The notes under the pieces: model-generated
What the model was told of the DNA's origin: nothing
The model's database searches: none
Seen by the model: only the letters and a program-made list of their open reading frames with translations
Position numbers and translations under genes: made by a program
Source: a virus
Length of the DNA: 32,397 nucleotides
Virus record (IMG/VR): IMGVR_UViG_3300048821_000195
Span: 1-32,397 of that record
Reading direction: 5' to 3' (one strand)
Shown: piece after piece, positions 90 to 21,083 of the stretch
Position numbering within the stretch: position 1 is the stretch's first letter
Layout: every line of letters starts with the position of its first letter

Positions 90-199
90 GCCTAACAAGT
101 CGCCGGAGCCAATCCCTATTGGCCATCGCAGTTTGTCCGCTACGGGTTTCTGGTTATTGTGCATCGCTAGTGCGGGATGGCTCAGCAGGAGCGTTAGAG
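90..199 (+). repeat. attC-like site L1
   Basis: Outer boxes are GCCTAAC (90-96) and GTTAGAG (193-199). The inner boxes pair GAGCCAATCCC with GGGATGGCTC, leaving one extra A in the left arm. The loop region holds a second small hairpin (GCCAAT/ATTGGC). The 3' end of the 154-1056 gene lies inside this site. Confidence 0.8.
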
Positions 200-1056
200 A
201 GCAAGTGCGGGCGCGATGGGCGCGCGAATAGTTTGAACCGAGCCAGCTTTTGAAGCCCTAGTTTCTCCATCGCGTTTTTTTCGCTCACAGATACGTATTG
301 TTTAGTGAATCCCAAAATGCGCCCGGTTTCCGGGCCGGTCTTGCCGGAGATTCGCAGCATGATTATTTTCCGCTCGTTTTCAGTTAGCGTGCTCAAGAGT
401 TTTTTCACATATTCGCGTTTCTCGTCGGTTGGCTCGTCGGTTGGCTCGTCGGTGTATTCCTGTCCGTTTTCATCCGGCAGGATGTCAGCCAGAGTTGCAT
501 CGCCAGCCACCGGAGTTTCTAGTGCGATTCCATTCCAAAAAAACTCGATGTCTTGAAAATTGACCACCTCACTGCTATTCGCAGAGTTGACGGCAGATAT
601 GGCTTCTTCCCACTTCATGCCATTCTGTGATTTGATTTCTAAACCGAAGCCGAGACGATTGATGTGACGCTCTTTTGAGCGATAGGCGGTATGTGTTTTT
701 TCTCTGAATCGTTTTGTGAAGTTTGCGACACGGCATTTCGGCGCACAGAATTTCGGCACGCGCCCGATTCCTTTTTTATTGAGATAGACAAATTCAGCCC
801 CGCAATGTTGGCATTTGATTTTCTGCGCGGATTTCCTCTCCATTTGGTTGCGTGCATCTATCGCCATTTGTCTCGAGGCTTCGCCGTATTGCTTTACCGG
901 AAAGTGTTTGCGGCGGCTTTTGCCATGCACCCGCTTTTCGGCGATCCAGTAGCCATCATAAAAGAACACGCCTTCGGGGTTGCTCTCTAACAAGACGCCG
1001 GAGCGAATGACGCCTACGCGCTGCTCTTGAATTTGGATGTCTTGGGATGGCGTCAT
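154..1056 (-). CDS. AP2-like / zinc-finger / sigma-70 region 4-like DNA-binding protein
   Basis: This 300-residue protein is by far the largest in the left array. Residues about 30-75 (GVFFYDGYWIAEKRVHGK onward) resemble an AP2-type DNA-binding fold. Residues about 82-118 carry a Cys pattern (CQHC...CAPKC) typical of a small zinc finger beside homing-type AP2 domains. Residues about 225-275 (LTENERKIIMLRISGKTGPETGRIL... read in part) look like the helix-turn-helix of sigma-70 region 4 or a LuxR-type HTH. An acidic TDEP repeat links the parts. The ATG at 1056 overlaps the preceding stop (ATGA) inside attC site L2, so residues about 13-25 are translated from the attC arm. The C-terminus (LLSNAPAEPSRTSDAQ) is translated from site L1. 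A transcription regulator is likely; a homing-endonuclease relative is the alternative. Confidence 0.7.
   Translation of the reverse strand: MTPSQDIQIQEQRVGVIRSGVLLESNPEGVFFYDGYWIAEKRVHGKSRRKHFPVKQYGEASRQMAIDARNQMERKSAQKIKCQHCGAEFVYLNKKGIGRVPKFCAPKCRVANFTKRFREKTHTAYRSKERHINRLGFGLEIKSQNGMKWEEAISAVNSANSSEVVNFQDIEFFWNGIALETPVAGDATLADILPDENGQEYTDEPTDEPTDEKREYVKKLLSTLTENERKIIMLRISGKTGPETGRILGFTKQYVSVSEKNAMEKLGLQKLARFKLFARPSRPHLLSNAPAEPSRTSDAQ
424..453 (-). repeat. 12-bp tandem repeat encoding TDEP
   Basis: Two and a half copies of a 12-base unit (ggctcgtcggtt on the + strand) encode TDEPTDEPTDE in the linker before the HTH segment of the 154-1056 protein. Copy number could vary by slippage. Confidence 0.7.
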
Positions 1057-1077
1057 CGCTCAGCTTTTATGTTAGAC
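985..1077 (+). repeat. attC-like site L2
   Basis: Outer boxes are CTCTAAC (985-991) and GTTAGAC (1071-1077). The inner boxes pair GAGCGAATGACGCC with GGCGTCATCGCTC, with one extra A on the left. The stop of the 1053-1385 gene and the start of the 154-1056 gene (ATGA) sit in the right arm. The left core with 5 flanking bases is complementary to the end of L1 over 12 bp, marking 193-991 as one former circle. Confidence 0.85.
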
Positions 1078-1385
1078 GGCCTGAGCACGTTCTCGGCTAT
1101 TCGCATGGCCTTTGTGTTGTCGCTCCAGTCTCCGTAGGATCTGATGGATGGACACACCGTCTCGCATCGCAGCCGAAGATGGACACACGACAGAAAGAGC
1201 CTTTCCAGAGCTAGGAGTGCGGGTTGCATTTCCTCCATCGCGTGCTTGCGTCCCATGTCATAGTTGCGGTCGCCCTCTTTAGTCACGTCTTCTGGTGTGA
1301 TGGGACGAGGGCCGTCTAACAAGCGAGTGGAGCTAACAGCCCCCGCGCTCTCAGTTTGTTTCGAGTCGTTTTGCATATTGTTCAC
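1053..1385 (-). CDS. Cassette protein of unknown function
   Basis: This is a small soluble protein of 110 residues from GTG 1385, or 107 from ATG 1376. The GTG overlaps the TGA of the upstream small gene (GTGA), which favours it by coupling. Residues about 13-27 (SAGAVSSTRLLDGPRP) are translated from the arm of attC site L3. The body is acidic/helical (MGRKHAMEEMQPALLALERL) with two cysteines. The C-terminus RPSNIKAER is translated from site L2, where the stop overlaps the next start. The function is not recognised; the mixture of attC-encoded ends and a unique middle is typical of this array. Confidence 0.65.
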   Translation of the reverse strand: MNNMQNDSKQTESAGAVSSTRLLDGPRPITPEDVTKEGDRNYDMGRKHAMEEMQPALLALERLFLSCVHLRLRCETVCPSIRSYGDWSDNTKAMRIAENVLRPSNIKAER

Positions 1386-1430
1386 TTTGGGTTGTTCGGC
1401 GGGGGCTGTAGCTCACCCGCAGCGTTAGGC
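1314..1430 (+). repeat. attC-like site L3
   Basis: Outer boxes are GTCTAAC (1314-1320) and GTTAGGC (1424-1430). The inner arms GAGCTAACAGCCCCCGC and GCGGGGGCTGTAGCTC pair over 16 bp with one extra A on the left, the longest inner stem in the array. The left core is complementary to the end of L2 over 11 bp. Confidence 0.85.
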
Positions 1431-1543
1431 GACTTGGGTTCATAGCATTCGCACCCGCATGAATGTTCCGGCCAGTTGTCATGGACACATGATTTGCTCG
1501 TTTCTTGTCGGAATTTATGCCGTTTTACCCGGGCGTGTTTCAC
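1382..1543 (-). CDS. Small Cys-rich cassette protein (53 aa)
   Basis: A GTG at 1543 opens a 53-codon frame through KSCVHDNWPEHSCGCECYEP, then SPNAAGE from the arm of site L3, to a TGA at 1382. The GTG lies inside the 3' end of the 1515-1757 gene (29-base overlap), and the TGA overlaps the GTG of the next gene (GTGA). The four clustered cysteines and the stop/start coupling argue for a real gene. The start is uncertain, since no clear ribosome site is seen. Function unknown; metal binding is possible. Confidence 0.45.
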   Translation of the reverse strand: MKHARVKRHKFRQETSKSCVHDNWPEHSCGCECYEPKSPNAAGELQPPPNNPK

Positions 1544-1757
1544 TCATCGGGAGCGCGCTCGCAGCGATTTCGCGGATGTTTTCTCCAAAGCTGCCTTCGC
1601 AGTCTCGGAACAGCTTAAGGGCTTCGACCATGCGCCGGTTTTCACGTTCGAGTTCGCGGGCGAAGTTAGACGATACCACTTGATCGCAGACCATTGCGTA
1701 GTGGTCGGTTGGCCGAAATTCAGCAGAGTCAGTTCTTGGTGTGTTAGATTTTAGCAT
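1515..1757 (-). CDS. Phage-type small protein (MLKSNTPRTDSAEF family)
   Basis: The protein has 80 residues and starts at ATG 1757. Its opening, SNTPRTDSAEF, followed by a helical segment (SSNFARELERENRRMVEALK) and a C-terminal tail, is a pattern I know from uncharacterised small proteins in phages and prophages. The segment after residue 30 is likely a short coiled coil. It shares its cassette (1430-2080) with the genes on either side. Function unknown. Confidence 0.65.
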   Translation of the reverse strand: MLKSNTPRTDSAEFRPTDHYAMVCDQVVSSNFARELERENRRMVEALKLFRDCEGSFGENIREIAASALPMSETRPGKTA

Positions 1758-1823
1758 ATCGTTTTATTGGTTATTTGACTTGTTTTATAGGTTGCGTAAG
1801 GTTTTTGATTTGCTTATTATTGC

Positions 1824-2057
1824 TTACTTGCTGCCGCCGCGCCGGTTGGTTTTTCTCCTGCTAGGGATCACTGACCGGCGTGGTGTTTTTCGCATTTCAT
1901 CTCTCGCGTTTCGCAGCGCGTGACAGGCGTCGTATAGTTCATCCGCCATCTTGGTGTTTTCCTCCAGTTCGGCAAGCACTGCCAGATCGAAGGCTTTGCG
2001 CGCCGATGCCGTCAGCCACTTCTTTACTTCGGACAGTTTCGTTTCGCTCTTTTTCAT
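1824..2057 (-). CDS. Small charged helical cassette protein
   Basis: The protein has 77 residues from ATG 2057 and is helical and strongly charged (KLSEVKKWLTASARKAFDLA, then ELEENTKMADELYDACHALR), ending in a basic arginine/lysine tail (RRSVIPSRRKTNRRGG). The basic tail suggests nucleic-acid contact, which is inference only. The leader is AT-rich (gatatacgaat before the ATG) without a Shine-Dalgarno sequence, like other cassette genes here. It is the first gene after core GTCTAAC of site L4. Confidence 0.6.
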   Translation of the reverse strand: MKKSETKLSEVKKWLTASARKAFDLAVLAELEENTKMADELYDACHALRNARDEMRKTPRRSVIPSRRKTNRRGGSK

Positions 2058-2079
2058 ATTCGTATATCTATCGTTCGCC

Positions 2080-2189
2080 GTCTAACCAGTCGCCGGAGCC
2101 AACCACGATTGGCGCTTTCCGTGACTCCGCAAGGGTCGTTGGTTGTTGGGTGTCCATAGTTCGTGGTGGCTCAGCTCCGAATGTTAGAC
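2080..2189 (+). repeat. attC-like site L4
   Basis: Outer boxes are GTCTAAC (2080-2086) and GTTAGAC (2183-2189). The inner arms GAGCCAACCACGA and TCGTGGTGGCTC have one extra A on the left, and the loop holds a GCCAA/TTGGC mini-hairpin. The end of the 2171-2356 gene (PSNIRS) is encoded in the right arm. Confidence 0.85.
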
Positions 2190-2356
2190 GGCTTCAAGTT
2201 CGTGCGCTTTTCAAAGTCTGCCACGGTTTCTGATCGGCAAAAGTCATCCGCCATTTTCCGGCGTCTTATTTCGCTCTCACATTCGGCGCAAGGTTTGCAC
2301 TTATTTTGCCAGCCGGGTGCGGCTTTCTCGCAGGTGTGAAGATTGATGTTGCTCAT
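2171..2356 (-). CDS. Small Cys-rich cassette protein
   Basis: The protein has 61 residues from ATG 2356, which overlaps the stop of the upstream gene (ATGA). It contains a zinc-ribbon-like set of cysteines (HTCEK...KCKPCAECE, then FCRSE) in the first 42 residues and a charged helix (SEIRRRKMADDF). The C-terminus LKPSNIRS and the stop come from attC arm L4. It is last of three overlapping genes in cassette 2189-2831. Metal binding is likely; the role is unknown. Confidence 0.65.
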   Translation of the reverse strand: MSNINLHTCEKAAPGWQNKCKPCAECESEIRRRKMADDFCRSETVADFEKRTNLKPSNIRS

Positions 2357-2616
2357 ATTGGTGGTAGTATTTTTACCGCATCGTCAAACTCGACAAGCCA
2401 TTCTTCCATCTTGCCGCCCGTCCTCAAATCATCCCACGTTGCAACGTCTCCGTTCAGATGCAGTCCGGTTACTCCTTGGCTCTGTGCCATCAGTTGGCAG
2501 ACCGCATCAATCCCCTTTCGCAAGATTTCGATCTCGCAATACTTGCAAAGTCCCGGCACCGGAGGATTTTCCGGCGTGCCGACAAAGTTTGTCTCGCATT
2601 TAGTGCATTGGCTCAT
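2353..2616 (-). CDS. Small zinc-ribbon cassette protein
   Basis: The protein has 87 residues from ATG 2616. A CTKC pair at residues 4-7 and a CKYC pair at 24-27 form a plausible zinc ribbon. The following part (GIDAVCQLMAQSQGVTGLHL, then DDLRTGGKMEEWLVEFDDAV) looks like a folded alpha/beta domain. It overlaps both neighbours by four bases (ATGA), so the three genes of this cassette form a translationally coupled mini-operon. I do not recognise the family. Confidence 0.65.
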   Translation of the reverse strand: MSQCTKCETNFVGTPENPPVPGLCKYCEIEILRKGIDAVCQLMAQSQGVTGLHLNGDVATWDDLRTGGKMEEWLVEFDDAVKILPPI

Positions 2617-2915
2617 ATTCGTATCTTTCGTTTTACTCGCGGTTCGTCGGTTTCATACCACAGGTGAGCGTGACCGGCCATGCAGTCGTTGTATTCATCC
2701 ACGGCCATTTCATGCTCGATTTGTTCCTGCCGTGTCCGGCTCGCGTGCTTGGCGCGTGTGCAGATCGGGTCGCATGTGTTTGTCTTCGGATTTTGATTGC
2801 GGACTTTTGCTCCACATATCACACAAAGCCGTCTAACAAATCGCTGCACCGAATGCTGCTTACTCCCGCAGTTTTCGGCGTCCAGCGTTTTTCGATTGTC
2901 AGAGGCTTTGTTCAT
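2613..2915 (-). CDS. Small zinc-finger cassette protein; start uncertain
   Basis: From ATG 2915 the frame has 100 residues, but the first 30 or so are translated from attC site L5. A GTG near residue 32 (VICGAKVRNQNP), just after core GTTAGAC, is an alternative start giving about 69 residues. The core has CVICGAK and later CDPIC, consistent with a degenerate-primase-like or HNH-adjacent zinc finger, then a charged helix (RTRQEQIEHEMAVDEYN). It overlaps the 2353-2616 gene by ATGA. The ATG 2915 itself overlaps the stop of the upstream gene, which supports the long form. Function unknown. Confidence 0.55.
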   Translation of the reverse strand: MNKASDNRKTLDAENCGSKQHSVQRFVRRLCVICGAKVRNQNPKTNTCDPICTRAKHASRTRQEQIEHEMAVDEYNDCMAGHAHLWYETDEPRVKRKIRI

Positions 2916-2960
2916 GGCTTTTGGTTTTTCGGCGCAGCATCGGTGAGCTTGTCGTTAGCC
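2831..2960 (+). repeat. attC-like site L5
   Basis: Outer boxes are GTCTAAC (2831-2837) and GTTAGCC (2954-2960). The inner arms CACCGAATGCTGC and GCAGCATCGGTG pair with one extra A on the left. The usual GAGCC box is replaced by CACCG with a compensating change in the other arm, so pairing rather than sequence is kept. Confidence 0.8.
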
Positions 2961-3187
2961 TGCTTGCGCTTGCAGCTTTCGCAGGTTGGTGTTGCTGTTT
3001 CAGTTTGCCAGAATTTATGACGCTGATTTCCGCATAGCGGCTTACCAGTTCCGTCGTCTATGTGTCGTGCTGCCGAGCGGTTTGGATTCGACCAGCGGCT
3101 TATACCATAGACGCAGGCTAACAAGTCCTCGAAGCCAATCCCTAGCGGAGCGGCCTCGGCAATCGGTAACGTCTGTGTCTGTTTCAT
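2912..3187 (-). CDS. Small zinc-ribbon cassette protein
   Basis: I prefer ATG 3187 (91 residues), which lies in the loop of attC L6; a longer frame to 3349 runs through the whole site. Residues about 15-30 (PLGIGFEDLLACVYG) are translated from the L6 arm. The core (GKPLCGNQRHKFWQ... then TCESCKRK) is a two-knuckle zinc motif widespread in small phage proteins. The stop overlaps the next start (ATGA). It is the only gene of cassette 2954-3122, one of the shortest here. Function unknown. Confidence 0.65.
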   Translation of the reverse strand: MKQTQTLPIAEAAPLGIGFEDLLACVYGISRWSNPNRSAARHIDDGTGKPLCGNQRHKFWQTETATPTCESCKRKQANDKLTDAAPKNQKP

Positions 3188-3223
3188 ATCGTTGGTGCGG
3201 GCTGGCTTGAGTCCGCGTTCTAC
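3116..3223 (+). repeat. attC-like site L6
   Basis: Left box GGCTAAC (3116-3122) and right box GTTCTAC (3217-3223). The inner arms GAAGCCAATCCC and GGGCTGGCTT pair imperfectly. GGCTAAC is complementary to L5 GTTAGCC over 10 bp with flanks. The unusual right core GTTCTAC is matched by GTAGAAC at L7, showing that the core belongs to the cassette. Confidence 0.75.
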
Positions 3224-3444
3224 CGCTTTCCTTCCCACCACCATTGAGGGTGTCCGTATAGTTTTCGGCCCACGTTTAGTTCTTTCGCCGTCGAGCGATT
3301 CATTTGCATCCGGTTGATTCTCCGCGTTCCATCCATCAGGGCATACCAACCGTCTCCACCATATTGCGAGCGCGGTAGAACTAGCCTGCCGGAGCCAACC
3401 GTGGTTGGCCGTCTCTTTGTATTCGCAAGGATTTTTTTAGTCAT
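3220..3444 (-). CDS. Small cassette protein, possible WW-rich C-terminus
   Basis: ATG 3444 gives 74 residues; an upstream frame to 3504 is also open. Residues 13-25 (TTVGSGRLVLPRSQ) are translated from the arm of site L7. The unique part is YGGDGWYALMDGTRRINRMQMNR... and ends GHPQWWWEGKR. The stop lies in the core of site L6. No family is recognised. The basic, aromatic composition suggests a small folded domain or a nucleic-acid contact; this is weak inference. Confidence 0.55.
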   Translation of the reverse strand: MTKKILANTKRRPTTVGSGRLVLPRSQYGGDGWYALMDGTRRINRMQMNRSTAKELNVGRKLYGHPQWWWEGKR

Positions 3445-3485
3445 AAAGTCTCCAGTCCACGGTGGCTCATCAGGCACCGTTAGGC
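3375..3485 (+). repeat. attC-like site L7
   Basis: Left box GTAGAAC (3375-3381) and right box GTTAGGC (3479-3485). The inner arms GAGCCAACCGTGG and CCACGGTGGCTC have one extra A on the left. The non-consensus left core exactly complements L6 GTTCTAC; with flanks the match is 10 bp. Confidence 0.8.
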
Positions 3486-3691
3486 GGATTCGCGCACCAG
3501 TCATTGCAGGCTGATGTTTTGCCAGTTTTGAAGCCGCCGAGTTTGCAGCGCAGATTTTTGTCTTTGGTGTATTTTCCGTAGAAGCCAGAGACGGTTTCAG
3601 TGTCGCACGAAAAGTGAGTGCAGTTCGTGCAGATTTTGATGGGCTTTGCGGTCCATCCTTGTTTCAGTTTTGCATCGGATTGTTTGCTCAT
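3470..3691 (-). CDS. Small Cys-rich phage-type protein
   Basis: The protein has 73 residues from ATG 3691. Cysteines are arranged as CTNCTHFSC (about 22-30), C49 before KLGG, and C62/C66 around ACNDWC. This resembles a family of small Cys-rich proteins common in phages and prophages, with CxNCxxF, a middle Cys and a final Cys-x-x-W. Zinc binding is likely. The last residues PPNGA are translated from attC arm L7. It is the only gene of its cassette, whose ends are complementary over 11 bp. Confidence 0.7.
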   Translation of the reverse strand: MSKQSDAKLKQGWTAKPIKICTNCTHFSCDTETVSGFYGKYTKDKNLRCKLGGFKTGKTSACNDWCANPPNGA

Positions 3692-3726
3692 ATTTTATTT
3701 GTTGATTTTGTTGTGATTGACCATCC

Positions 3727-3825
3727 GCCTAACAGGTCGCCGGAGGCAACCGCCGTTGGCGCTTGCAGTTCCGCTATCGCGGTTCACGTCGCGAGTCGGC
3801 GGTGGCTCAGCTTTCATCGTTCGGC
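3727..3825 (+). repeat. attC-like site L8
   Basis: Outer boxes are GCCTAAC (3727-3733) and GTTCGGC (3819-3825). The inner arms GAGGCAACCGCCG and CGGCGGTGGCTC have one extra A on the left and one mismatch. The loop holds GGCAAC/GTTGGC pairing. Confidence 0.8.
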
Positions 3826-4136
3826 GCTTTGAATTTTGGCCAGTTGTTTTCCGCTACAATCCTGTAATGCTTGGCCTGTTCCGGTGGCAGCGCGTGTGCT
3901 CTGAATCGTTCGACCTCTTGCTCTGTCAACGAGCGCATCGTTACAAAGTTTTTCTGGCCTTCCGACCAGTAGTAGAGCCACCAGCCATCGGTGGTTTTAT
4001 TGACCATGAAGGGCCACGGTCTATCGTCGAGGAACACGAAGCTGCCAGCGCCGAACAAATCACTGGAGGCAATGTCGCTTGCGCCTCCGGTTTTGTCAGC
4101 CGCATCAGTCGTTCCACCATGAGTTGTGATTGCCAT
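3807..4136 (-). CDS. Cassette protein with attC-derived ends
   Basis: ATG 4136 (109 residues) is preceded by AAAGGAAAATAAT, a fair ribosome site; ATG 4160 is the alternative. Residues about 18-32 (GGASDIASSDLFGAGS) are translated from decayed attC site L9, and the last residues APNDES from site L8. The unique centre (FVFLDDRPWPFMVNKTTDGWWLYYWSEGQKNFVTMRSL) resembles a small beta-rich phage protein of unknown function, followed by a helix. The stop is in the L8 arm. It follows the tiny TM gene at 4138-4236 by one base. Confidence 0.65.
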   Translation of the reverse strand: MAITTHGGTTDAADKTGGASDIASSDLFGAGSFVFLDDRPWPFMVNKTTDGWWLYYWSEGQKNFVTMRSLTEQEVERFRAHALPPEQAKHYRIVAENNWPKFKAPNDES

Positions 4137-4175
4137 ATTATTTTCCTTTCGTCGCGCCATGCCTCAGTTCACCGC
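4050..4175 (+). repeat. Decayed attC-like site L9
   Basis: The left arm is clear: GCCGAAC (4050-4056) followed by GGAGGCAATGTCGC, and it complements L8 GTTCGGC over 10 bp with flanks. The right arm is only approximate (GCGCCATGCCTC at about 4155), and no GTTRRRY core stands at the expected spacing. The right boundary is a guess. Confidence 0.5.
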
Positions 4176-4236
4176 CGATTGCCACGATTGATGCGACGAT
4201 CCAGCCCGCGTAGTTTGGTTCACCATTTTCTTTCAT
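4138..4236 (-). CDS. Tiny single-TM peptide (32 aa)
   Basis: ATG 4236 opens 32 codons reading MKENGEPNYAGWIVASIVAI and ending LRHGATKGK. The middle (YAGWIVASIVAIGG) is a plausible membrane segment. The TAA ends one base before the start of the next gene, which is tight operon packing. The gene lies between site L10 and the decayed L9. Very small TM proteins also occur at 11160 and 27054. Function unknown. Confidence 0.4.
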   Translation of the reverse strand: MKENGEPNYAGWIVASIVAIGGELRHGATKGK

Positions 4237-4260
4237 TGTTGTGTGTCTTTCGATTGTGCC

Positions 4261-4369
4261 GCCCAACAACCGCATGGAGCCAATGCGGGTTGGACGTTTT
4301 GTTTTGTTCGTTCAGGCTCCAGATTTTTTCGAGTCGCTAGTCCCGCTTGGCTCAGCAGGGACGTTAGGC
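4261..4369 (+). repeat. attC-like site L10
   Basis: Outer boxes are GCCCAAC (4261-4267) and GTTAGGC (4363-4369). The inner arms GAGCCAATGCGGG and CCCGCTTGGCTC have one extra base on the left. With flanks, the right end complements the left end of L12 over 13 positions with one mismatch, so 4363-4995 was one cassette. Confidence 0.75.
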
Positions 4370-4509
4370 AGCCGGGCGGAGCGTTTAGCTTTGCGGCGAG
4401 CTTTTTGAAGCGCGGCCTGTTGCGCTGGCGTGATTGTCCGTGTGCGCTTCCGCTTCTTCGGGCCTTGCGCGCCCCATCGCTTGAAATCTTCGCTGGTGTA
4501 GGTTTTCAC
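4312..4509 (-). CDS. Small Lys/Arg-rich cassette protein
   Basis: The GTG start at 4509 overlaps the TGA of the upstream gene. The 65 residues are very basic (KKRKRTRTITPAQQAALQKA, then RRKAKRSAR), and the tail (LPNVPAEPSGTSDSKKSGA) is translated from attC site L10. The central 'TITPAQQAALQKARRKAK' is reminiscent of short phage-encoded DNA-binding peptides, but no family is claimed. Confidence 0.55.
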   Translation of the reverse strand: MKTYTSEDFKRWGAQGPKKRKRTRTITPAQQAALQKARRKAKRSARLPNVPAEPSGTSDSKKSGA

Positions 4510-4712
4510 TTGTTCAGGAGTTCGCCAGACCAGATGAAAAGATGATTCAGCTTTCCGGTCTTGTCCTGCCCAAAAGTGTTGATGCAGTGACCCGGAAACT
4601 CATCGTGCAGGCGAGCGGTTTCATTACGCCAGCCGGCCAGAAATGACGGGTCTTGCGCCTCAAACAGTTTTGTTTCGAGTGTGTCGAGATAGATGGTCGG
4701 TGATGTTGTCAT
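4506..4712 (-). CDS. Small cassette protein of unknown function
   Basis: The protein has 68 residues from ATG 4712. It appears soluble and mixed alpha/beta (YLDTLETKLFEAQDPSFLAG, then FPGHCINTFGQDKTGKLNHLF). It ends four bases inside the next gene (GTGA overlap). The AT-rich leader lacks a Shine-Dalgarno sequence. No family recognised. Confidence 0.6.
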   Translation of the reverse strand: MTTSPTIYLDTLETKLFEAQDPSFLAGWRNETARLHDEFPGHCINTFGQDKTGKLNHLFIWSGELLNK

Positions 4713-4806
4713 ATTTTATGTGCGGCAGATCGCCATCCTGCCGCCGATGTTTCGTTAGGACTCTGACAGTCGCGTTGCGAGCGCCGCAGCAAAACTATTT
4801 CATCTC

Positions 4807-4953
4807 TCATCTTCGCCATACCGGACTCACATTGTAGCCGGTAGTCTTTTGATCGAGTCGCCGCATCTGGATTCCAAACGCCTTGGCGTGATCCGCAGAA
4901 CCGTTTTGCTGCTACACCGACACTTTATCATAACCTGGTTTCGACACAAGCAC
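4807..4953 (-). pseudogene. Possible decayed gene with in-frame amber stop
   Basis: From GTG 4953 a frame reads VLVSKPGYDKVSV, hits TAG at 4912-4914, then continues with normal-looking protein (QQNGSADHAKAFGIQMRRLD, then YNVSPVWRR) to a TGA at 4807. The stretch 4713-4988 holds no other open frame. It may be a pseudogene, a recoded amber, or chance. A GTTAGGA at 4754 near its end could be a dead core box. Confidence 0.3.
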
Positions 4954-4988
4954 TATTTCATTTTATTTTCGTGAGTCGCAAACCGGCT

Positions 4989-5099
4989 GTCTAACAACCG
5001 CATGGAGCACAATGCGGCGGACGCTCGGCAGTTCGGATGTTGGTTCAAGATTCACGGTTCTCGTTTTTCGCGCCGCATGGCTCATGCGGAGCGTTCGGC
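4989..5099 (+). repeat. attC-like site L12
   Basis: Outer boxes are GTCTAAC (4989-4995) and GTTCGGC (5093-5099). The inner arms GAGCACAATGCGGCG and CGCCGCATGGCTC have two extra bases on the left. The end of the 5045-5407 gene is translated from it (SPNAPHEP). Confidence 0.75.
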
Positions 5100-5407
5100 G
5101 ACACCCGGCGACGGTTTATTTCGCAGTCCGGATCTGAGCAGTGAGAGCCTTCCGAATCCCACCAGACCACATGGTATCTCGCACCGTCTTTGATGATGTG
5201 CTTTATCGAGCCGTCTGCGTTCACGATTCTTGGCGGGATGTCGTTAGGCATCGCGGCGGCACGCCTTGGATATGATTGATTTGTATATTCCGCCGCCTCG
5301 CGGAAGGCCGAATCGCGGGCATCATTTTGGATTTTTCGGATTTGCTTGGCGAGTATTTGCAGGTGCGGCCATCCATTTTCTGTGCAGATTTGCAGTGTTG
5401 TTTTCAT
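5045..5407 (-). CDS. Fused cassette protein carrying a fossil attC core
   Basis: The protein has 120 residues from ATG 5407. Residues 1-55 (MKTTLQICTENGWPHLQIL..., ending AAAMPND) look like one complete cassette protein with the usual attC-encoded AMPND tail. Residues 56-105 (IPPRIVNADGSIKHIIKDGA..., VVWWDSEGSHCSDPDCEINR) look like a second small protein with a C-x4-C pair. The junction contains GTTAGGC at 5243-5249, a leftover attC core. The simplest reading is that the attC between two cassettes was lost, fusing the reading frames. The leader (gattaacgacatacaaataaa) is shared with other cassettes. Function unknown. Confidence 0.6.
   Translation of the reverse strand: MKTTLQICTENGWPHLQILAKQIRKIQNDARDSAFREAAEYTNQSYPRRAAAMPNDIPPRIVNADGSIKHIIKDGARYHVVWWDSEGSHCSDPDCEINRRRVSPNAPHEPCGAKNENRES
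5243..5249 (+). repeat. Fossil attC core box inside a gene
   Basis: GTTAGGC followed by ATCGC lies in the middle of the 5045-5407 frame. It is complementary in 10 of 12 positions to the core at 5434-5440, as expected for the two ends of one former cassette (5243-5440). No inner boxes remain next to it. Confidence 0.5.
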
Positions 5408-5422
5408 TTTATTTGTATGTCG

Positions 5423-5644
5423 TTAATCGCTCTGCCTAACAAGTCGCTGTTTTCTCAAAGCCCTGAACGCCGCGACGTATTTTGTCTGCCCCATCAGTTT
5501 TGGAGAAAGCCCGCTCCACCAGCGTCGTGAGGTTTTACGAAGCGTGAACATCCGCTGATATTGTCGGCGATATTCCGTCCCGCCAAGCAGCTTGAACGAG
5601 ATTCCAGTTTTATTCGGTCGGCCTATTGGTGGAAGTGTTGTCAT
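5423..5644 (-). CDS. Small basic protein at the array/phage border
   Basis: The protein has 73 residues from ATG 5644 and is strongly basic (RPNKTGISFKLLGGTEYRRQ, then TLRKTSRRWWSGLSPKLMGQ). Its C-terminus RLVRQSD is translated from the half attC at 5434-5450. It sits 25 bases after the DnaC-like gene, so it may be the last true phage gene of the early operon or the first cassette. The composition suggests nucleic-acid binding. No family recognised. Confidence 0.55.
   Translation of the reverse strand: MTTLPPIGRPNKTGISFKLLGGTEYRRQYQRMFTLRKTSRRWWSGLSPKLMGQTKYVAAFRALRKQRLVRQSD
5434..5450 (+). repeat. Half attC at the inner end of the left array
   Basis: GCCTAAC (5434-5440) followed by AAGTCGCTG matches the conserved arm of the full sites, but no GAGCC box or second arm follows; the sequence to the right is coding. 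The same kind of half site (same arm, mirrored) borders the right array at 26650-26673. Confidence 0.6.
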
Positions 5645-5669: not shown

Positions 5670-6338
5670 TTAAAATTGAATCACGTCGCACATTTCCTTG
5701 AGACGCCGCACAAGGGCATCGCCGCGATCTGACGACATTCTCGCAGCCAAAGTATCGCCCGTGTCGTTCAGCGTCGCTAGAATCGGAAGGCCGTTTGAAA
5801 GTCGGTAATCCACAATGGCGAACACCGCAGCCTCAAATGAATCTGTCAGCTTCACCTTGAACACGTCATCAAAGAAAAGAAGCCCACATTTGCAGCGGCA
5901 CTCAATCCAGTCGTTCACGGCGCGGCCTCCACCTTCAAAAATTCCGGCGTATTCAAACCCCGCCAATGCGCCTAAAATCTGAATTGATTTCCCAGTGTTA
6001 AAAACACGCTCGCAAAGCAGCCAAGCACAACGGGATTTCCCTGTGCCTGTTTCCCCGTGAAGCAATAATCCCTTGCGCCCGTAAATCCAAGAAAGAACTT
6101 CCTGCGCCTTTTCCGGCCTTGGAAGCCGGCCAATGTCAGTCTCTTGAAAATCAATCGGACATATCTTTTTCCAACTCGCAACGCGGGAATCACGAAGCTC
6201 TTTTTCCGCCCGCTGTGCGGCCTCGGCGGAATGCTTCTTACAACACTCCGGGCAATAAAACGGGAACTTCGAGAACGTTGGATTGTCCGGCACTTCGGCC
6301 ATGCTGGGACAATTTTCAGTTTTACAATTTTTCTTCAT
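5670..6338 (-). CDS. DnaC-like helicase-loader ATPase
   Basis: This 222-residue AAA+ protein of the DnaC/IstB type would load the host or phage replicative helicase. The N-terminus has a Cys cluster (C5, C10, C29, C32, C33), probably a zinc finger. Walker A is GETGTGKS at 95-102 and Walker B is LLFFDD at 153-158. A sensor-1-like segment (ILATLNDTGD) is at about 186-195, and arginine-rich DRGDALVRRL at about 204-213 supplies the arginine finger region. The length fits phage DnaC proteins. The ribosome site AAGGA stands upstream of ATG 6338. It follows the replication organiser by two bases, the classic organiser-loader pair, and is the last recognisable replication gene of the leftward operon. 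Confidence 0.85.
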   Translation of the reverse strand: MKKNCKTENCPSMAEVPDNPTFSKFPFYCPECCKKHSAEAAQRAEKELRDSRVASWKKICPIDFQETDIGRLPRPEKAQEVLSWIYGRKGLLLHGETGTGKSRCAWLLCERVFNTGKSIQILGALAGFEYAGIFEGGGRAVNDWIECRCKCGLLFFDDVFKVKLTDSFEAAVFAIVDYRLSNGLPILATLNDTGDTLAARMSSDRGDALVRRLKEMCDVIQF

Positions 6339-7918: not shown

Positions 7919-8709
7919 CGCCCCGCCTTCTCTTTCGACGCCAGCAGCCTGTCCATCACTTCGTAATTCACAGCGGGAATTTCCGCGAACGTGGCCGCGC
8001 CCGCCAGTTTCAAAAATGATGGGAGATGACTGTTGACCATCTTGCAACGGTGTTCCAACTCTTCCGCCTGCGCCGCCGTGATCTTCTTGCTGGTGTCACC
8101 CAAATTTCGGGGGTCATCGGATTCTTGGATGCGCGATTTCAGACCGAACATTTTGATGACCAGATGGCGCCATGCGCTCGTGGTCGCGCCGGTGTCGGCG
8201 GCGGTCGCGTCCTTCATGGCGTTGGTGTTGCCCGACCGGACGGAATACTCCCGCGTCTCCTCATGGCCGTCTTGATGAACCAGCGTTATTATTGCCGCCG
8301 TTTTTCCGCCGTCGTCACGCTGGCCAAAGAGCATGGTGAATCCATGCCGCAAAAGCAGCGGATCGAGTTTTGATGCAAGCTCCTTTTCCGAGCAGTAGGT
8401 ATAAGCAACCTTGTCGTTGTTGTTCTTCGCCGCCTTGTCCGCGTAAAAGTCCATGCCAGCGATTTCCTTTTTCAGTTCAAAGAAGGCACGGTTGAACTTC
8501 GCCTTGGCTTCAAAAGCTACCTCCTCCCGGCGCATGGCGATGATTTCCTTGACCACGGCCACATTCTCGGACGTGACTCCTCCGCGAACGGCTGCGTCCA
8601 AGATGTCGAGCGATGACGGATGGCGCGGCGCAGCAACGGGCATCGGATCACGCGATACGGTGGCCAATTCGAGCGTTTCCGGCGGCGGGTTGCTGGTGGT
8701 GGATTTCAT
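7915..8709 (-). CDS. ERF-family single-strand annealing protein
   Basis: The protein has 264 residues. The central part shows the ERF pattern: FNRAFFELKKEIAGMDFYAD (about 82-101), AYTYCSEKELASKLDPLLLR with HGFTMLFG (about 110-140), then VRSGNTNAMKDATAADTGAT and TSAWRHLVIKMFGL (about 165-200), where the known family has a TSYGRRYLL-like segment. It would coat and anneal single-stranded DNA during phage recombination. The ATG 8709 overlaps the preceding tiny gene and its stop overlaps the exonuclease (ATGA), so the three are coupled. Confidence 0.85.
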   Translation of the reverse strand: MKSTTSNPPPETLELATVSRDPMPVAAPRHPSSLDILDAAVRGGVTSENVAVVKEIIAMRREEVAFEAKAKFNRAFFELKKEIAGMDFYADKAAKNNNDKVAYTYCSEKELASKLDPLLLRHGFTMLFGQRDDGGKTAAIITLVHQDGHEETREYSVRSGNTNAMKDATAADTGATTSAWRHLVIKMFGLKSRIQESDDPRNLGDTSKKITAAQAEELEHRCKMVNSHLPSFLKLAGAATFAEIPAVNYEVMDRLLASKEKAGR

Positions 8710-8807
8710 AGGCGGGCGATTTGAGATTCAACCCAGACAGCCAGTTCTTCAATCTTGACGTCAGTTGAATTTACAATTTCAAGTTCAATGGTTTTTGGTT
8801 CGGTCAT
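8706..8807 (-). CDS. 33-residue acidic peptide upstream of ERF gene
   Basis: A clear ribosome site (AAAAGGAAAT) precedes ATG 8807, and the frame MTEPKTIELEIVNSTDVKIE... IARL ends with ATGA overlap onto the ERF start. It reads as a beta-strand followed by an amphipathic helix. The small size, good ribosome site and coupling suggest a real gene, perhaps translation control or a partner for ERF. No family known. Confidence 0.6.
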   Translation of the reverse strand: MTEPKTIELEIVNSTDVKIEELAVWVESQIARL

Positions 8808-8832: not shown

Positions 8833-9147
8833 TTAAATTGGTGGGGACGGCAGGGACTTGAACCCTGCATTAGCACTTTCGTTGGCGTCCGTTTTACAGA
8901 CGGATTTGCTCGGACTGGATTGTAATTCCAGCTTGCTTCTCGCTGCCGCGTCCCCGACAAAATCATTCTTCGCAACTTCCAGCGATTTTTCCAATTCATC
9001 AAAATCGGATTGCGAAAACTTTTCCACGGCGTCCCATGCCTGGCATTTGTCACAATAGCAGGCGCGTCCATTTTGCAACTGATGCGGCCTGCCCTCGAAA
9101 TACAGCTTGAGCAGCGCGGTGACGAGGTTTGCGGTTTGAGGCGTCAT
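8833..9147 (-). CDS. Small Cys-containing early protein overlapping the tRNA-like gene
   Basis: ATG 9147 opens MTPQTANLVTALLKLYFEGR, then HQLQNGRACYCDKCQAWDAV with a CYCDKC pair, and a charged helix (KFSQSDFDELEKSLEVAKND). The frame stays open to 8833, giving 104 residues, but the last about 45 residues are read through the tRNA-like sequence 8842-8955. The true protein could be shorter by frame disruption, or the tRNA may be cut from the same transcript. The first 60 residues look like a real phage protein; the tail is doubtful. Function unknown. Confidence 0.55.
   Translation of the reverse strand: MTPQTANLVTALLKLYFEGRPHQLQNGRACYCDKCQAWDAVEKFSQSDFDELEKSLEVAKNDFVGDAAARSKLELQSSPSKSVCKTDANESANAGFKSLPSPPI
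8840..8955 (-). tRNA. tRNA-like gene, Tyr-type (GUA) with an extra anticodon-like arm
   Basis: Read leftward from 8955. Acceptor strands are GGGGACG (5') and CGTCCCC (3'), followed by ACC. The T arm is GCAGGG-TTCAAGT-CCCTGC, whose loop is fully canonical although the stem is 6 bp. A hairpin TCCGT-CTGTAAA-ACGGA has the exact tRNA-Tyr anticodon loop (anticodon GTA, T33, A37). Upstream is a second 5-bp hairpin, CTGGA-ATTACAA-TCCAG, also shaped like an anticodon arm (anticodon position TAC). The D region (CAGC/GCTG) shares bases with that arm and lacks a GG in its loop. The body is 114 nt, too long for a normal tRNA-Tyr. It may be a functional odd tRNA, a remnant, or a regulatory mimic. Confidence 0.5.
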
Positions 9148-14445: not shown

Positions 14446-14480
14446 GCACTAAATTCACCGGCCAGTCACAAGCCAATTTT

Positions 14481-14637
14481 GTGTTACGATTGATCTATGA
14501 CGTAACACCAGGCTACTGCCCAGAACAAGCCAATTCGCAGTAACACGAAACGTAAAACCAGTAACACCAAATTGGATTTAGACTAATTCTAAATTGGTGT
14601 TACGATTAAATCAGGACGTAACACCAGGCCACTGCCC
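14481..14637. promoter_or_regulatory. Operator/iteron cluster with six GTAACAC heptamers
   Basis: Two 41-base direct repeats (14481-14521 and 14597-14637, 35 of 41 identical) each contain GTGTTACGATT-N7-GACGTAACACC, an inverted pair of GTAACAC. Two more GTAACAC copies, each preceded by CA, lie between (14540, 14561). An ATTTAG-N7-CTAAAT inverted repeat sits at about 14577-14595. The cluster stands in the only long gene-free stretch (14411-14839), between divergent operons, so it is either the lysogeny/early-late operator or a replication origin with iterons. Confidence 0.65.
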
Positions 14638-15696: not shown

Positions 15697-16542
15697 ATGC
15701 AACTGACCGCTGTTGTTGACACAACAAATTTGATGAAGGCGCAAACAATCCTGATGCGCCACTCCAATCGCTCGCCCGCTCGGTGCATTAACTCGACGGC
15801 GTATCACGTTATCAGTGATGTGGTAGATGCTGACGGCGGTTTTCCGGTTGTTTCACAATCCACAATTGATTCGGATATGGAGGTAACAGTCACACCGATT
15901 CTGTCAACGCGGGGATCGAGCAGGGGGCAGCCGCTTAAATCTGGCGCGACGGAAATGGAAATCCCGGACATGAGCGCGGCAATGGCGATAACGATTGCCA
16001 GGATGAATCCACAGTCGGCATACAGCCTTTCCACTGGCAATCGTTGGCCGGTGGCATCACAGGGCGGATGGCACGCGATGATTAAAGGATTTGCGAGGGC
16101 ATACGGGGCGCAAAACGCATACTCAATGGCATTGGATGCTATCCGTCCAATCGCGGAGCGCATGGTTCGCGCCCGGCACTCGTCCCCCGGATTCCTTAAA
16201 AAGTCGTGGATTGATTTGAAGGTTGCATTGATTCCGTTCGCAATGGGGCAGTCAAACCCGTTTGGCGGGGGCGGGATGCTGACAAACTACGCGGATGTTT
16301 CACCGGCGAAAGAAGGATCTTCAATGGCTGTTTGCCGCGTATCGAACACATTGGGGACGGGATACCAAACCACGAAAGAGCTTTCTGAAAAATACAATGA
16401 AGCCAATCACCGGATTGCAGAACCACGGTTGCAAGCCGCGATAAGCCGAGAATTTGATTCAAAGATGGCATTGGCGGCAAAGGCAGAATGGGCAAAAGAC
16501 GAGCCGGGATTGGCGGCGTTGGGATTACTGGTAAAGCCGTGA
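15697..16542 (+). CDS. Phage structural protein candidate (281 aa)
   Basis: The protein has 281 residues, with a start MQLTAVVDTTNLMKAQTILM and a middle with repeated short polar stretches (SMALDAIRPIAERMVRARHS, DLKVALIPFAMGQSNPFGGG). The N-terminal 'VVDTTNLMKAQTIL' resembles minor tail or tail-completion proteins that begin V-D-T-x-x, and the residues after 100 are Ala/Met-rich helices. It is the first gene of the structural run, where a head-tail connector or tail terminator would be expected. I do not recognise the family. It is not an obvious terminase, portal or capsid. Confidence 0.5.
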   Translation: MQLTAVVDTTNLMKAQTILMRHSNRSPARCINSTAYHVISDVVDADGGFPVVSQSTIDSDMEVTVTPILSTRGSSRGQPLKSGATEMEIPDMSAAMAITIARMNPQSAYSLSTGNRWPVASQGGWHAMIKGFARAYGAQNAYSMALDAIRPIAERMVRARHSSPGFLKKSWIDLKVALIPFAMGQSNPFGGGGMLTNYADVSPAKEGSSMAVCRVSNTLGTGYQTTKELSEKYNEANHRIAEPRLQAAISREFDSKMALAAKAEWAKDEPGLAALGLLVKP

Positions 16543-16564
16543 CTTTGACTTTCCTTCATTAGCG

Positions 16565-17137
16565 ATGGCCTTTTTCATCAGTCCGGCGACCAAGTTTGAA
16601 CGCGCGATGCGCGCCCTTTTGATTTTGCAAAACAAAGGCGCATGGGACGATTCTTTCATTTCCCTCGATTCCAGAATCCGCGTGCTGCCAAACCGCACGT
16701 TTTCCGTTCGTGGATTCAACCCGACGCGCGGATGGAGGCCGGAGGGTGTCTGCCAGTTGGAAATTCAGCATCACTTCTCCGCCGTTGACCAGCCGAACGA
16801 GGCCGCGAACACGCAGCAAGTTTTGATGGAGAACTACGTTGGCGACACGCTTGACACCCTGAACCTCGGCGGACAGCCGGAAGCAACCGACATGAAGGCA
16901 TTGGCGGACGCAATAACGCAAGCGGGGCGATGGCTGGCGATACCCGGAAGCAACCCGTCGGCGGCAGATTTGGCAATTGTCGCAGCGAATAAAGACATGG
17001 CGAATTTCCGTTGCGATTGGGTTAAATTCTCGACGCCGCTGATCACACGCGGAACCGAAACAGGAACGACCAATTGGGTTGAAATAATCCACCTTTCCGC
17101 GTTTGTCAGCCATGCAAGCGCGGCACTACCAAACTGA
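16565..17137 (+). CDS. Tail-module protein of unknown function (190 aa)
   Basis: The protein has 190 residues (MAFFISPATKFERAMRALLI, then RIRVLPNRTFSVRGFNPTRG). The mostly beta middle (CQLEIQHHFSAVDQPNEAAN) and C-terminal WVEIIHLSAFVSHASAALPN fit a tail terminator or neck protein by size and place, but there is no motif to prove it. It starts 22 bases after its neighbour and ends just before the next gene. Confidence 0.5.
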   Translation: MAFFISPATKFERAMRALLILQNKGAWDDSFISLDSRIRVLPNRTFSVRGFNPTRGWRPEGVCQLEIQHHFSAVDQPNEAANTQQVLMENYVGDTLDTLNLGGQPEATDMKALADAITQAGRWLAIPGSNPSAADLAIVAANKDMANFRCDWVKFSTPLITRGTETGTTNWVEIIHLSAFVSHASAALPN

Positions 17138-17141
17138 TTTT

Positions 17142-17465
17142 ATGACCGAACAACCGTCATCCACTCCGCAACCGGTTCCGGCTACCACCACAAAGGCGCA
17201 GCCGGTATTGCCATCCAATGCGCCACAGTTCGCAAAGCAAAAGCATCCGCTGCGATTCTCCATTTCGGGGAAGCAGCACATGATCAGCCCGCTGAAGGGG
17301 CTGATTTCCGCCATTCCTGAAATCCCCGACGAATACAAGGCATTGCTCCATTCGGAACTGGACAACATTAAAACGAACGCCGCACAAGTGGACTTGCACG
17401 TTGTTGACCATGCAGACGGCGGGATTTCGATTCAGGCTCATATCAAGCCAATCCAGCTTGGTTGA
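17142..17465 (+). CDS. Small tail-module protein with a Pro/Thr-rich start
   Basis: ATG 17142 gives 107 residues; the longer frame to 17103 overlaps the previous gene without support. The first 30 residues are disordered (TEQPSSTPQPVPATTTKAQP). The rest is a compact domain (LRFSISGKQHMISPLKGLIS, AIPEIPDEYKALLHSELDNI, QVDLHVVDHADGGISIQAHI) with a histidine-bearing loop. Function unknown. Confidence 0.5.
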   Translation: MTEQPSSTPQPVPATTTKAQPVLPSNAPQFAKQKHPLRFSISGKQHMISPLKGLISAIPEIPDEYKALLHSELDNIKTNAAQVDLHVVDHADGGISIQAHIKPIQLG

Positions 17466-17504
17466 CGGGTTGACTTTGAAACTTTTACGACCGGCAACAC
17501 GATT

Positions 17505-17891
17505 ATGAAACGCTTTTTACTCATTTTGATTCTGGCGGTGTTTTCGCCCTGCATTCAGGCGTGGGCGGCACCGGTGCTTATCATCGGAACGCTGGCGACA
17601 GTGAACAACACGACCGCCTACAGTTCCACGAACGCCTGTTTTGCCTACAATCCGACATTGCAGCAATTCACCGTTACGCACGGCGCGTTGACGGCAACGA
17701 ATGCGATGGTGTTGAACATTCAGTCCACGCTCGATCAGGTCAACTATGTGACAATTTACACATGGTATCCGTCCACAACGAACGCCGCGACCGAATACAT
17801 CTACGCCGGACAGATTCCGGTGACGAATTACTTCCGCGTCCAATGCGTTACAACCAACAGCGTTCAAGTCGGCGGCAGTTACGGCCAATAA
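17505..17891 (+). CDS. Exported small beta-rich protein
   Basis: The 128 residues begin with a clear signal peptide: MKRFLLILILAVFSPCIQAW followed by an AxA-type cleavage site (WAA). The mature part is Thr/Asn-rich beta sequence (LATVNNTTAYSSTNACFAYN, ATNAMVLNIQSTLDQVNYVT). A signal peptide inside a tail operon is unusual. It may be a lysis, surface or receptor-modifying protein. A Cys follows the hydrophobic core early on (C16), but the context does not look like a clean lipobox. Confidence 0.55.
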   Translation: MKRFLLILILAVFSPCIQAWAAPVLIIGTLATVNNTTAYSSTNACFAYNPTLQQFTVTHGALTATNAMVLNIQSTLDQVNYVTIYTWYPSTTNAATEYIYAGQIPVTNYFRVQCVTTNSVQVGGSYGQ

Positions 17892-17904
17892 TCCAAACAA
17901 AATT

Positions 17905-18075
17905 ATGCCAGATCAAAATGAACAGCTTGCGGAGTTAATCAAGAAATTCCGCGCCCTGAAAACGCATGAGGAAAAGTGCGCGTTTCTGCATCAGCCAGAA
18001 AACTATCCGATTCTTGGCACGATTTACAACTCGATCCACTTTCCGAAGCCCGCAGAAAAACCCACAACCGAATAA
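17905..18075 (+). CDS. 56-residue tail-operon protein
   Basis: ATG 17905 gives MPDQNEQLAELIKKFRALKT, then HEEKCAFLHQPENYPILGTI and ends FPKPAEKPTTE. The codons are regular, and the gene ends three bases before the tube candidate. It is helical at the start, with a Pro-rich end. It may be a small connector or chaperone; no family known. Confidence 0.5.
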   Translation: MPDQNEQLAELIKKFRALKTHEEKCAFLHQPENYPILGTIYNSIHFPKPAEKPTTE

Positions 18076-18078
18076 TTT

Positions 18079-18546
18079 ATGCCTGGCCCATCACCCCTCA
18101 ACATTACGGAACAGCAAGTAGGCGCAATAGCTTATTTGTATGGCATCACCAATTCCGGCACGGCGGTTATGATTGCCGGACTGGACTCGTTTGAATTTGA
18201 TTCCGACGAACTGACAGTTCAATGGGATGAAAAAGCCAACAAGGACACGACCGGCAACATCCAGAATTTCACAAAGACGAATTTCCGGTATGAACGGTCG
18301 CTGAAAATCTTTCCTAGCGGCGCAACGCGCGCGGCGGCGGCTGTGGTTGCCGGAGAAGCCATCACGCTTACGTCGGCGGTCATCGCCAATTATAAGGTGG
18401 CGTCGTTCAACGGAACTTGGCGCGTGAAATCCGGCACGAAGATCAATTTGAAGATGGACGACAACGCTTCGATTGATTTCAACATGGAGCGTTATCTTGA
18501 TGCTGGACAGAATGCGGCACTGACGGGCGCGGCGATTGTCGGTTAA
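18079..18546 (+). CDS. Major tail-tube protein candidate
   Basis: The protein has 155 residues (MPGPSPLNITEQQVGAIAYL, then VMIAGLDSFEFDSDELTVQW). It is nearly all beta with two short helical pieces, the size and composition of a phage tail-tube subunit. The element 'SFEFDSDELTVQWDEKANKD' followed by KTNFRYERSLKIF is typical of tube-like beta domains. It is followed by a strong terminator, as is common after highly expressed tube genes. The assignment rests on position and fold look. Confidence 0.5.
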   Translation: MPGPSPLNITEQQVGAIAYLYGITNSGTAVMIAGLDSFEFDSDELTVQWDEKANKDTTGNIQNFTKTNFRYERSLKIFPSGATRAAAAVVAGEAITLTSAVIANYKVASFNGTWRVKSGTKINLKMDDNASIDFNMERYLDAGQNAALTGAAIVG

Positions 18547-18568
18547 TCGCGGTTTTACAATTTAATAC

Positions 18569-18606
18569 GGCGGCAGCGGAGTTAATCCGGTGCCGCCATC
18601 TTTTTT
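18569..18606 (+). terminator. Rho-independent terminator or attenuator after tube gene
   Basis: GGCGGCA (18569-18575) pairs with TGCCGCC (18591-18597), with an inner CGG/CCG pair, followed by ATC and six Ts. It would cut transcription after the tube candidate and lower the downstream genes. Confidence 0.8.
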
Positions 18607-18609
18607 ACA

Positions 18610-19284
18610 ATGCACGACAACGAATTTTCGACATCATTTCAACCACCAACGACAAAGGTTTTTGGCGTCGTGATGGAAGCGTATGCCATCGGGCATGAGT
18701 TGGCGTTAATCCGGCAAGGAAACCCGATGGCAACCTACACTGAGGCGTCGTTTGCAGAACTGTCCACCGACGCGAAGAAACTTGCGTTGGCGATGGCGGT
18801 TGAAATCTGCGGCAGGGGATTCGGATTTTTCAAGAAGTGGAAATTTGTCATCTCGGAGTTTCGATCCAAACCGGAAGAACTGGCGGCGCAGATAAAAACC
18901 TTCCGCGAGTATCGCGCCGCCGGCAGCCAAGACTTGCCGCTGACGAAGATGCCAAAGCAACACGGCATTCCGTTTCGCTATTACGGCGCTCCGGGATTGG
19001 CGAGCCTCATCAATTACGTCACCGCGCAACACTCATTGCTGATAAAGTCACACTTCAAAGGCTCGCCCCTGAACTTCCCGCTTGGATTGGCTCAAATCCT
19101 TTACACGACGCATTTGGAAACCACCGGGGCGGTGTGGGTGAAGAATCATCAGGAAATGGAGCGCGAGAAACCGCGACCGGAAGGAATGCCGCCGATTGGC
19201 CAGAACGAAAGGGTCTTTGTAGGCGAAGAGGCGGAAAAAGCGTTTGCCGAGGCGGTGGCAAGCGCGAACAAAGGATCTAAATAA
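18610..19284 (+). CDS. Tail assembly chaperone position; 224-aa protein
   Basis: The protein has 224 residues (MHDNEFSTSFQPPTTKVFGV, LALIRQGNPMATYTEASFAE, then KWKFVISEFRSKPEELAAQI). It stands between tube and tape-measure genes, where the tail assembly chaperones are encoded. The helical body, the loop with repeated Pro (PLTKMPKQHGIPFRYYGAPG) and an acidic-basic end (ERVFVGEEAEKAFAEAVASA) fit. I see no slippery sequence that proves a programmed frameshift. The C-terminus ends two bases before the tape measure. Confidence 0.5.
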   Translation: MHDNEFSTSFQPPTTKVFGVVMEAYAIGHELALIRQGNPMATYTEASFAELSTDAKKLALAMAVEICGRGFGFFKKWKFVISEFRSKPEELAAQIKTFREYRAAGSQDLPLTKMPKQHGIPFRYYGAPGLASLINYVTAQHSLLIKSHFKGSPLNFPLGLAQILYTTHLETTGAVWVKNHQEMEREKPRPEGMPPIGQNERVFVGEEAEKAFAEAVASANKGSK

Positions 19285-19286
19285 TC

Positions 19287-21080: not shown

Positions 21081-21083
21081 TTT

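Follow-up and report, generated by a model that had tools for sequence, protein, structure and literature searches.

Can a single tRNA-like gene carry two anticodon arms? The question is raised by a locus in a bacterial virus (IMG/VR record IMGVR_UViG_3300048821_000195), of which we analysed a stretch of 32,397 nucleotides, called the window below. The first-pass annotation placed a 114-nt gene at 8840-8955 and described two 5-bp/7-nt hairpins in it, one of them a textbook tRNA-Tyr anticodon arm and the other standing where the D region should lie. The element is real, but it runs on the minus strand, from 8955 to 8839, and is 117 nt long including CCA (Table 1).

Structure and setting of the element

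From 5' to 3', the element consists of GGGGACG, a 16-nt D region, a first hairpin (arm 1), a 45-nt region with a second hairpin (arm 2), the T arm, CGTCCCC, an A, and CCA. The acceptor GGGGACG/CGTCCCC and the T arm with its TTCAAGT loop, both noticed before, were confirmed, with 7/7 acceptor pairs followed by A-CCA; the T stem has 6 bp, not 5, and the stacked acceptor/T helix therefore reaches 13 bp, one more than the usual 12. The D region forms only a rudimentary 2-bp hairpin 5' of arm 1, its loop lacks GG, and position 8 is C, not U. In the fold, an AGCA/TGCT stem (8910-8907 with 8875-8872) encloses arm 2.

The descriptor used in our searches required a 7-bp acceptor, a T arm of at least 5 bp with TTCRA, and a single 5-bp/7-nt hairpin carrying U33 and a purine at position 37. 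Even with only one hairpin asked for, it had no match in 60 Markov-simulated windows. The element folds 3.5 s.d. better than its dinucleotide shuffles (z = -3.5) and ranks first by fold z-score among 1,076 windows of 117 nt on both strands. The simulated windows and this rank rule out a chance origin. In 2.1 Mb of viral loci and 1,173 ARAGORN tRNAs, no distinct example of the architecture was found outside the element and its one copy. Other descriptor matches in the 2.1 Mb overlapped ordinary tRNA genes, mostly bridging two adjacent ones, and further matches were two ordinary tRNA-Ser genes of class II, in which the variable arm forms a 5-bp/7-nt hairpin by coincidence. The variable arm of an ordinary phage tRNA can thus resemble an anticodon arm, as arm 2 does. 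The element is a real tRNA-derived structure, odd in form and an orphan of one virus lineage.

Table 1. Positions of the element, its parts and the neighbouring reading frames in the window
Feature	Position	Strand	Details
Whole tRNA-like element, GGGGACG...CGTCCCC-A-CCA	8839..8955	-	117 nt; fold z -3.5; rank 1 of 1,076 windows
Acceptor stem, 5' strand, GGGGACG	8949..8955	-	7/7 Watson-Crick with 8843-8849; pair probabilities 0.82-1.0
D region, CGGCAGCGAGAAGCAA	8933..8948	-	hairpin of at most 2 bp (8935-8943), pair probability 0.66
Arm 1, G-CTGGA-ATTACAA-TCCAG-T	8914..8932	-	5-6 bp, 7-nt loop; pair probability 0.89-0.99
Oversized variable region	8869..8913	-	45 nt; from the fold and the alignment of model R1 to class II tRNAs
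Arm 2	8886..8904	-	TCCGT-CTGTAAA-ACGGA (8904-8888) or, preferred, CGTCTGT-AAA-ACGGACG (8902-8886)
T arm, GCAGGG-TTCAAGT-CCCTGC	8850..8868	-	6 bp (6/6 pairs); pair probability 0.93-0.98
Acceptor 3' strand CGTCCCC, discriminator A, encoded CCA	8839..8849	-	read from the sequence
ORF through the element	8833..9147	-	104 codons; codon-position GC coding-like only ahead of the element
Next gene	8706..8807	-	33 aa; ATG 31 nt past CCA; internally deleted relative to L122

As had been noted before, the element lies inside an open reading frame on the same strand (9147-8833), of which it forms the 3' part. GC at the three codon positions is 0.56/0.34/0.59 before the element, 0.49/0.56/0.56 within it and 0.57/0.47/0.59 in the phage genes, the first two values coming from short stretches. 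Since the coding pattern is lost at the element, the last part of the ORF probably encodes no protein domain and results from reading through the element. The only relative found for the ORF was in L015, a record of the same phage. Downstream of the 33-aa gene are genes for an ERF-like annealing protein and then a RecE-like exonuclease. The ERF region of L122 matches the window at 98% DNA identity. An early gene of L122 (2880-4004) encodes 374 aa, and a large in-frame internal deletion has reduced it to 33 aa in the window. With its neighbouring gene internally deleted, the slot may be decaying. No promoter of the element's own was evident.

Other features of the window were also recorded. Arrays of attC-like integron cassette sites are present at both contig ends (26617-30680, plus strand; 92-5447, minus strand); the sites are imperfect palindromes of 90-110 nt of the form GCCTAAC...GTTAGGC, and the cassettes include a DNA methyltransferase and a radical-SAM gene. 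In the related phage L128/L251, the attC-like repeats are 92-97% identical, and integrons in phages have been reported (PMC9892861). A tyrosine integrase is encoded at 31481-32368, and the protein encoded at 154-1056 (minus strand) combines an AP2/HNH-like part with a sigma-70 region 4 domain. Between divergent gene blocks, two 47-nt direct repeats (14475-14521 and 14591-14637, 83% alike) contain the inverted motif GTGTTACG...CGTAACAC and look like a putative repressor operator pair. The large late-strand genes at 15697-26133 (plus strand; 597 aa, 1220 aa and others) have no PHROGs or Pfam match, and their sequences suggest an unusually divergent virion module.

Which hairpin is the anticodon arm

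Among the 1,173 phage tRNAs identified by ARAGORN, which served as our reference, the anticodon starts at nt 28-38. In the element, TAC of arm 1 (8924-8922) starts at nt 32 and GTA of arm 2 at nt 59; arm 1 occupies the normal position of an anticodon arm, and arm 2 that of a variable arm. The earlier view that arm 1 takes the place of the D region does not agree with this position, nor with the D hairpin that lies 5' of it. When a model built from the element (R1) was searched elsewhere, its best matches were class II tRNAs (Leu, Sec, and Ser in L022), and the two printed alignments (Leu and Sec) place arm 1 opposite their anticodon arm and the arm-2 region opposite their variable arm. After in-silico shortening of the variable region, ARAGORN in its lenient metazoan-mitochondrial mode called tRNA-Val(tac), whereas its strict mode rejected every shortened form; shortening around arm 2 with arm 1 deleted gave no Tyr call. 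The best alignment of the Rfam tRNA model takes arm 2, not arm 1, as the anticodon arm, but that model penalises the 45-nt insertion.

Folding of arm 2 points in the same direction as its position. As free RNA, its bases prefer CGUCUGU-AAA-ACGGACG (-7.5 kcal/mol), a stem of 7 bp closed by an AAA triloop, over UCCGU-CUGUAAA-ACGGA (-4.6 kcal/mol), and the 5-bp/7-nt register is thus 2.9 kcal/mol worse. In the ensemble of the whole element, the 5/7 pairs of arm 2 have a probability of about 0.035 (about 4%), while those of the 5-bp core of arm 1 reach 0.90-0.99. Two real phage Tyr anticodon arms, folded in the same way as controls, retained their 7-nt anticodon loop. Thermodynamic folding takes no account of modifications and tertiary contacts, which can hold an anticodon loop in its register, and since these may shift it, the evidence for the triloop is strong but not final.

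By these results, arm 1 alone is a stable anticodon arm, and arm 2, taken at first for another one, is more likely a side (variable) arm of excessive size. The triplet at the anticodon position is UAC (Val), and GUA (Tyr) appears only when the variable arm adopts its minority register. The sequence allows both of the 5-bp/7-nt hairpins first described, but the second, being a minority form, was not confirmed as a textbook tRNA-Tyr arm. The description of the element as tRNA-derived and structurally abnormal holds, while that of two anticodon-type arms is weakly supported. For two decoding anticodons there is no support, at least as the main form of the RNA, and our literature search found no report of a tRNA that has two anticodon arms.

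tRNA classes and relatives

The acceptor and T arms of the element are those of a canonical tRNA (RF00005), with 7/7 and 6/6 pairs, TTCAAGT and ACCA. The elbow of a canonical tRNA calls for U8, A14 and G18G19, whereas the element has C at position 8, a D loop without GG and a D stem of at most 2 bp. A low covariance score had been named beforehand as counting against the first interpretation, and the score was low: the Rfam tRNA model gave 15.7 bits, below its gathering cut-off of 29 bits. ARAGORN found no tRNA gene in the element, which at 117 nt is longer than the longest of the 1,173 reference tRNAs (101 nt). A long structured variable arm (45 nt) between the anticodon and T arms is the hallmark by which the element resembles class II. 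It shares the order of its arms with the class II phage tRNAs (Ser, Leu and Tyr; e.g., tRNA-Ser(GCU) in L061 and L226) but differs from them in its 45-nt variable region, UAC, rudimentary D arm and 6-bp T stem. Like bacterial tRNA-Sec, it has a 13-bp acceptor/T helix and a long variable arm. However, tRNA-Sec is built of 8 + 5 bp with a 6-bp D stem and UCA, whereas the element has 7 + 6 bp and neither such a D stem nor that anticodon. tRNA-Sec (RF01852) was rejected on these grounds (7/6 helix, 2-bp D stem, UAC) and by the absence of a match up to E = 10. T-box and tmRNA were dropped as well, because Rfam gave only a tRNA fragment, a menRNA match confined to the T arm and two unrelated weak matches. 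Active tRNAs with altered D arms and with departures from the 7/5 acceptor/T rule do exist, as passages of a review describe (PMC7609411). Unlike the element as first described, no tRNA in those passages has two anticodon arms, and the word 'phage' is absent from the main text of the review. In an 80-kb phage (L061) with 24 tRNAs in the 7.9-kb part examined, we observed another element missed by ARAGORN: a tRNA-Tyr-like structure at 5729-5816 (minus strand) with a CCCTAC/GTAGGG stem around a Tyr anticodon arm, which scored 24.4 bits with the tRNA-Sec model, below the cut-off.

Among the matches listed in the IMG/VR scans, the only other copy of the element is in L015, a record of the same phage that differs at 7 of 6,176 positions (99.9% identical), none of them within the element; DNA-pattern and protein scans gave no further copy among the matches listed, and a scan limited to the element's own spacing found no other copy in 80 of 88 stretches. 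Conservation of both hairpins, whose absence the first-pass annotation had likewise named as counting against its interpretation, could be judged only against this near-identical copy, so that there is a lack of homologues and not a shown loss. The neighbouring ERF-like protein led to 13 more records (one of them, L255, at only 24% identity), and none of the 13 has an Rfam tRNA. Where the flanks could be aligned, the flanking genes were kept and other genes occupied the slot. Distant BLAST searches of GenBank phages and plasmids matched the T arm and CCA end, and only that part of the element, to annotated phage tRNA genes, with E-values that were not significant. Bacterial genomes had no match to one exact pattern of the element and, in a search for the host, none to the neighbouring ERF protein.

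Origin and possible use

The explanation that we favour, with about half of our confidence behind it, is a single phage-encoded, noncanonical class-II-like tRNA gene that would have been gained recently, be released by RNase P and serve as a decoy or supplement. As computed, the architecture comprises the acceptor, a rudimentary D hairpin, arm 1 as the anticodon arm, a 45-nt variable region tipped by the second hairpin, the T arm and CCA. The gene would be a recent gain of the minus-strand early operon, in a variable slot that lies shortly before the ERF/exonuclease recombination genes; the variability of the slot and the absence of the element from relatives were shown by the comparison above. 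It would be co-transcribed with the early operon, and RNase P and 3' processing would probably cut it out because the acceptor/T helix with its TTCAAGT loop and CCA are what RNase P reads. Excision would also leave the recombination mRNA that follows with a new 5' end. UAC of arm 1 would read the valine codons GTA and GTG. As known from tRNA-Sec, a 13-bp helix is unfavourable for elongation with EF-Tu. Lacking G18G19 and U8 and having such a helix, the element is unlikely to be an efficient EF-Tu elongator (compare the passages of PMC7609411). It might instead be an accessory tRNA mimic, perhaps a decoy or a cleavage-resistant supplement against host tRNA-cutting defences. Phage tRNAs rescue phages from tRNA-degrading defences (PMC11555353, PMC13096335, PMC10264068), and by analogy with this documented use, the accessory slot makes such a role the most plausible one. 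The element resembles the phage tRNA-Tyr that acts against retron-Eco7/Septu (T5, T6) in being a tRNA-derived RNA carried by a phage, and the variable loop of tRNA-Tyr is the cut site of that defence (PMC13096335, PMC11555353). Unlike the T5 and T6 genes, which are proper tRNA-Tyr genes, the element has its GUA off the anticodon position, and its role against a defence is putative. The intact helices, in the best-folding window of the phage, argue for this explanation, while the Rfam score, the ARAGORN result, the lack of varied homologues and the lack of a promoter of its own argue against it. No homologue with variation, by which selection on the pairs could be seen, was found in these searches.

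Its main rival, possible though rather doubtful, is a decaying or recombination-scrambled pseudo-tRNA, that is, a class II tRNA (perhaps tRNA-Tyr) that received an insertion, lost its D arm and is now functionless. The missing D arm, U8 and GG, the rejection by both ARAGORN and Rfam, the restriction to a single lineage and the large deletion in the adjacent gene relative to L122 are all consistent with decay. However, decay would be expected to break pairs, and the acceptor, T stem and CCA are intact; moreover, there is no duplication signal between arms 1 and 2. Their similarity is no higher than that of shuffles, which also speaks against the earlier suggestion of a tRNA-tRNA fusion, insofar as it arose by tandem duplication. 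The element is unlikely to be a tRNA-Tyr(GUA) with an inserted hairpin, in which arm 2 would be the true anticodon arm and arm 1, with its linker, would have been inserted into the D region. The loop CTGTAAA is standard for a Tyr anticodon arm, the Rfam tRNA model chose arm 2, and G1-C72 and A73 of the element fit bacterial tRNA-Tyr. Against this, arm 2 rarely adopts the register needed, its GTA lies outside the usual range of anticodon positions, and deletion of arm 1 produced no Tyr call.

Five nucleotides of one 7-nt loop are complementary to five of the other (UUACA/UGUAA; duplex -3.2 kcal/mol), and the next start codon follows shortly after the element. Both facts would suit a regulatory tRNA mimic in which UUACA of arm 1 pairs with UGUAA of arm 2, or arm 1 offers UAC, the Tyr codon, to host tRNA-Tyr; the early operon would then be under the control of the state of this contact. 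We consider such a mimic very unlikely, since U33 and A37 are given in both loops and complementarity of the three anticodon bases is then a 1-in-64 coincidence, the preferred register of arm 2 hides its loop, and there are no homologues to reveal covariation. A little more improbable still is a tRNA whose complementary loops make an intramolecular kissing contact or capture host tRNA-Tyr, so that a switch between a decoding-like and a closed form would control or protect translation during infection. The least probable reading is a relic of an attachment site, or tRNA-dependent lysogeny, in which the phage inserts itself into a host tRNA gene and brings a replacement with it. Phages with this way of life exist (PMC10865867) and the window encodes a tyrosine integrase, but the element is far from that gene, shares no repeat of at least 12 nt with the rest of the window and is not recognisable as a functional tRNA.

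Should the element prove to be no more than a decayed tRNA, its significance would be small. A tRNA-like gene of 117 nt was nevertheless overlooked by ARAGORN and by the Rfam cut-offs, and such elements may be under-counted. Some tRNA-cutting defences are now known to succeed or fail depending on the tRNAs that a phage carries, and phage tRNAs missed by standard tRNA finders would therefore matter.
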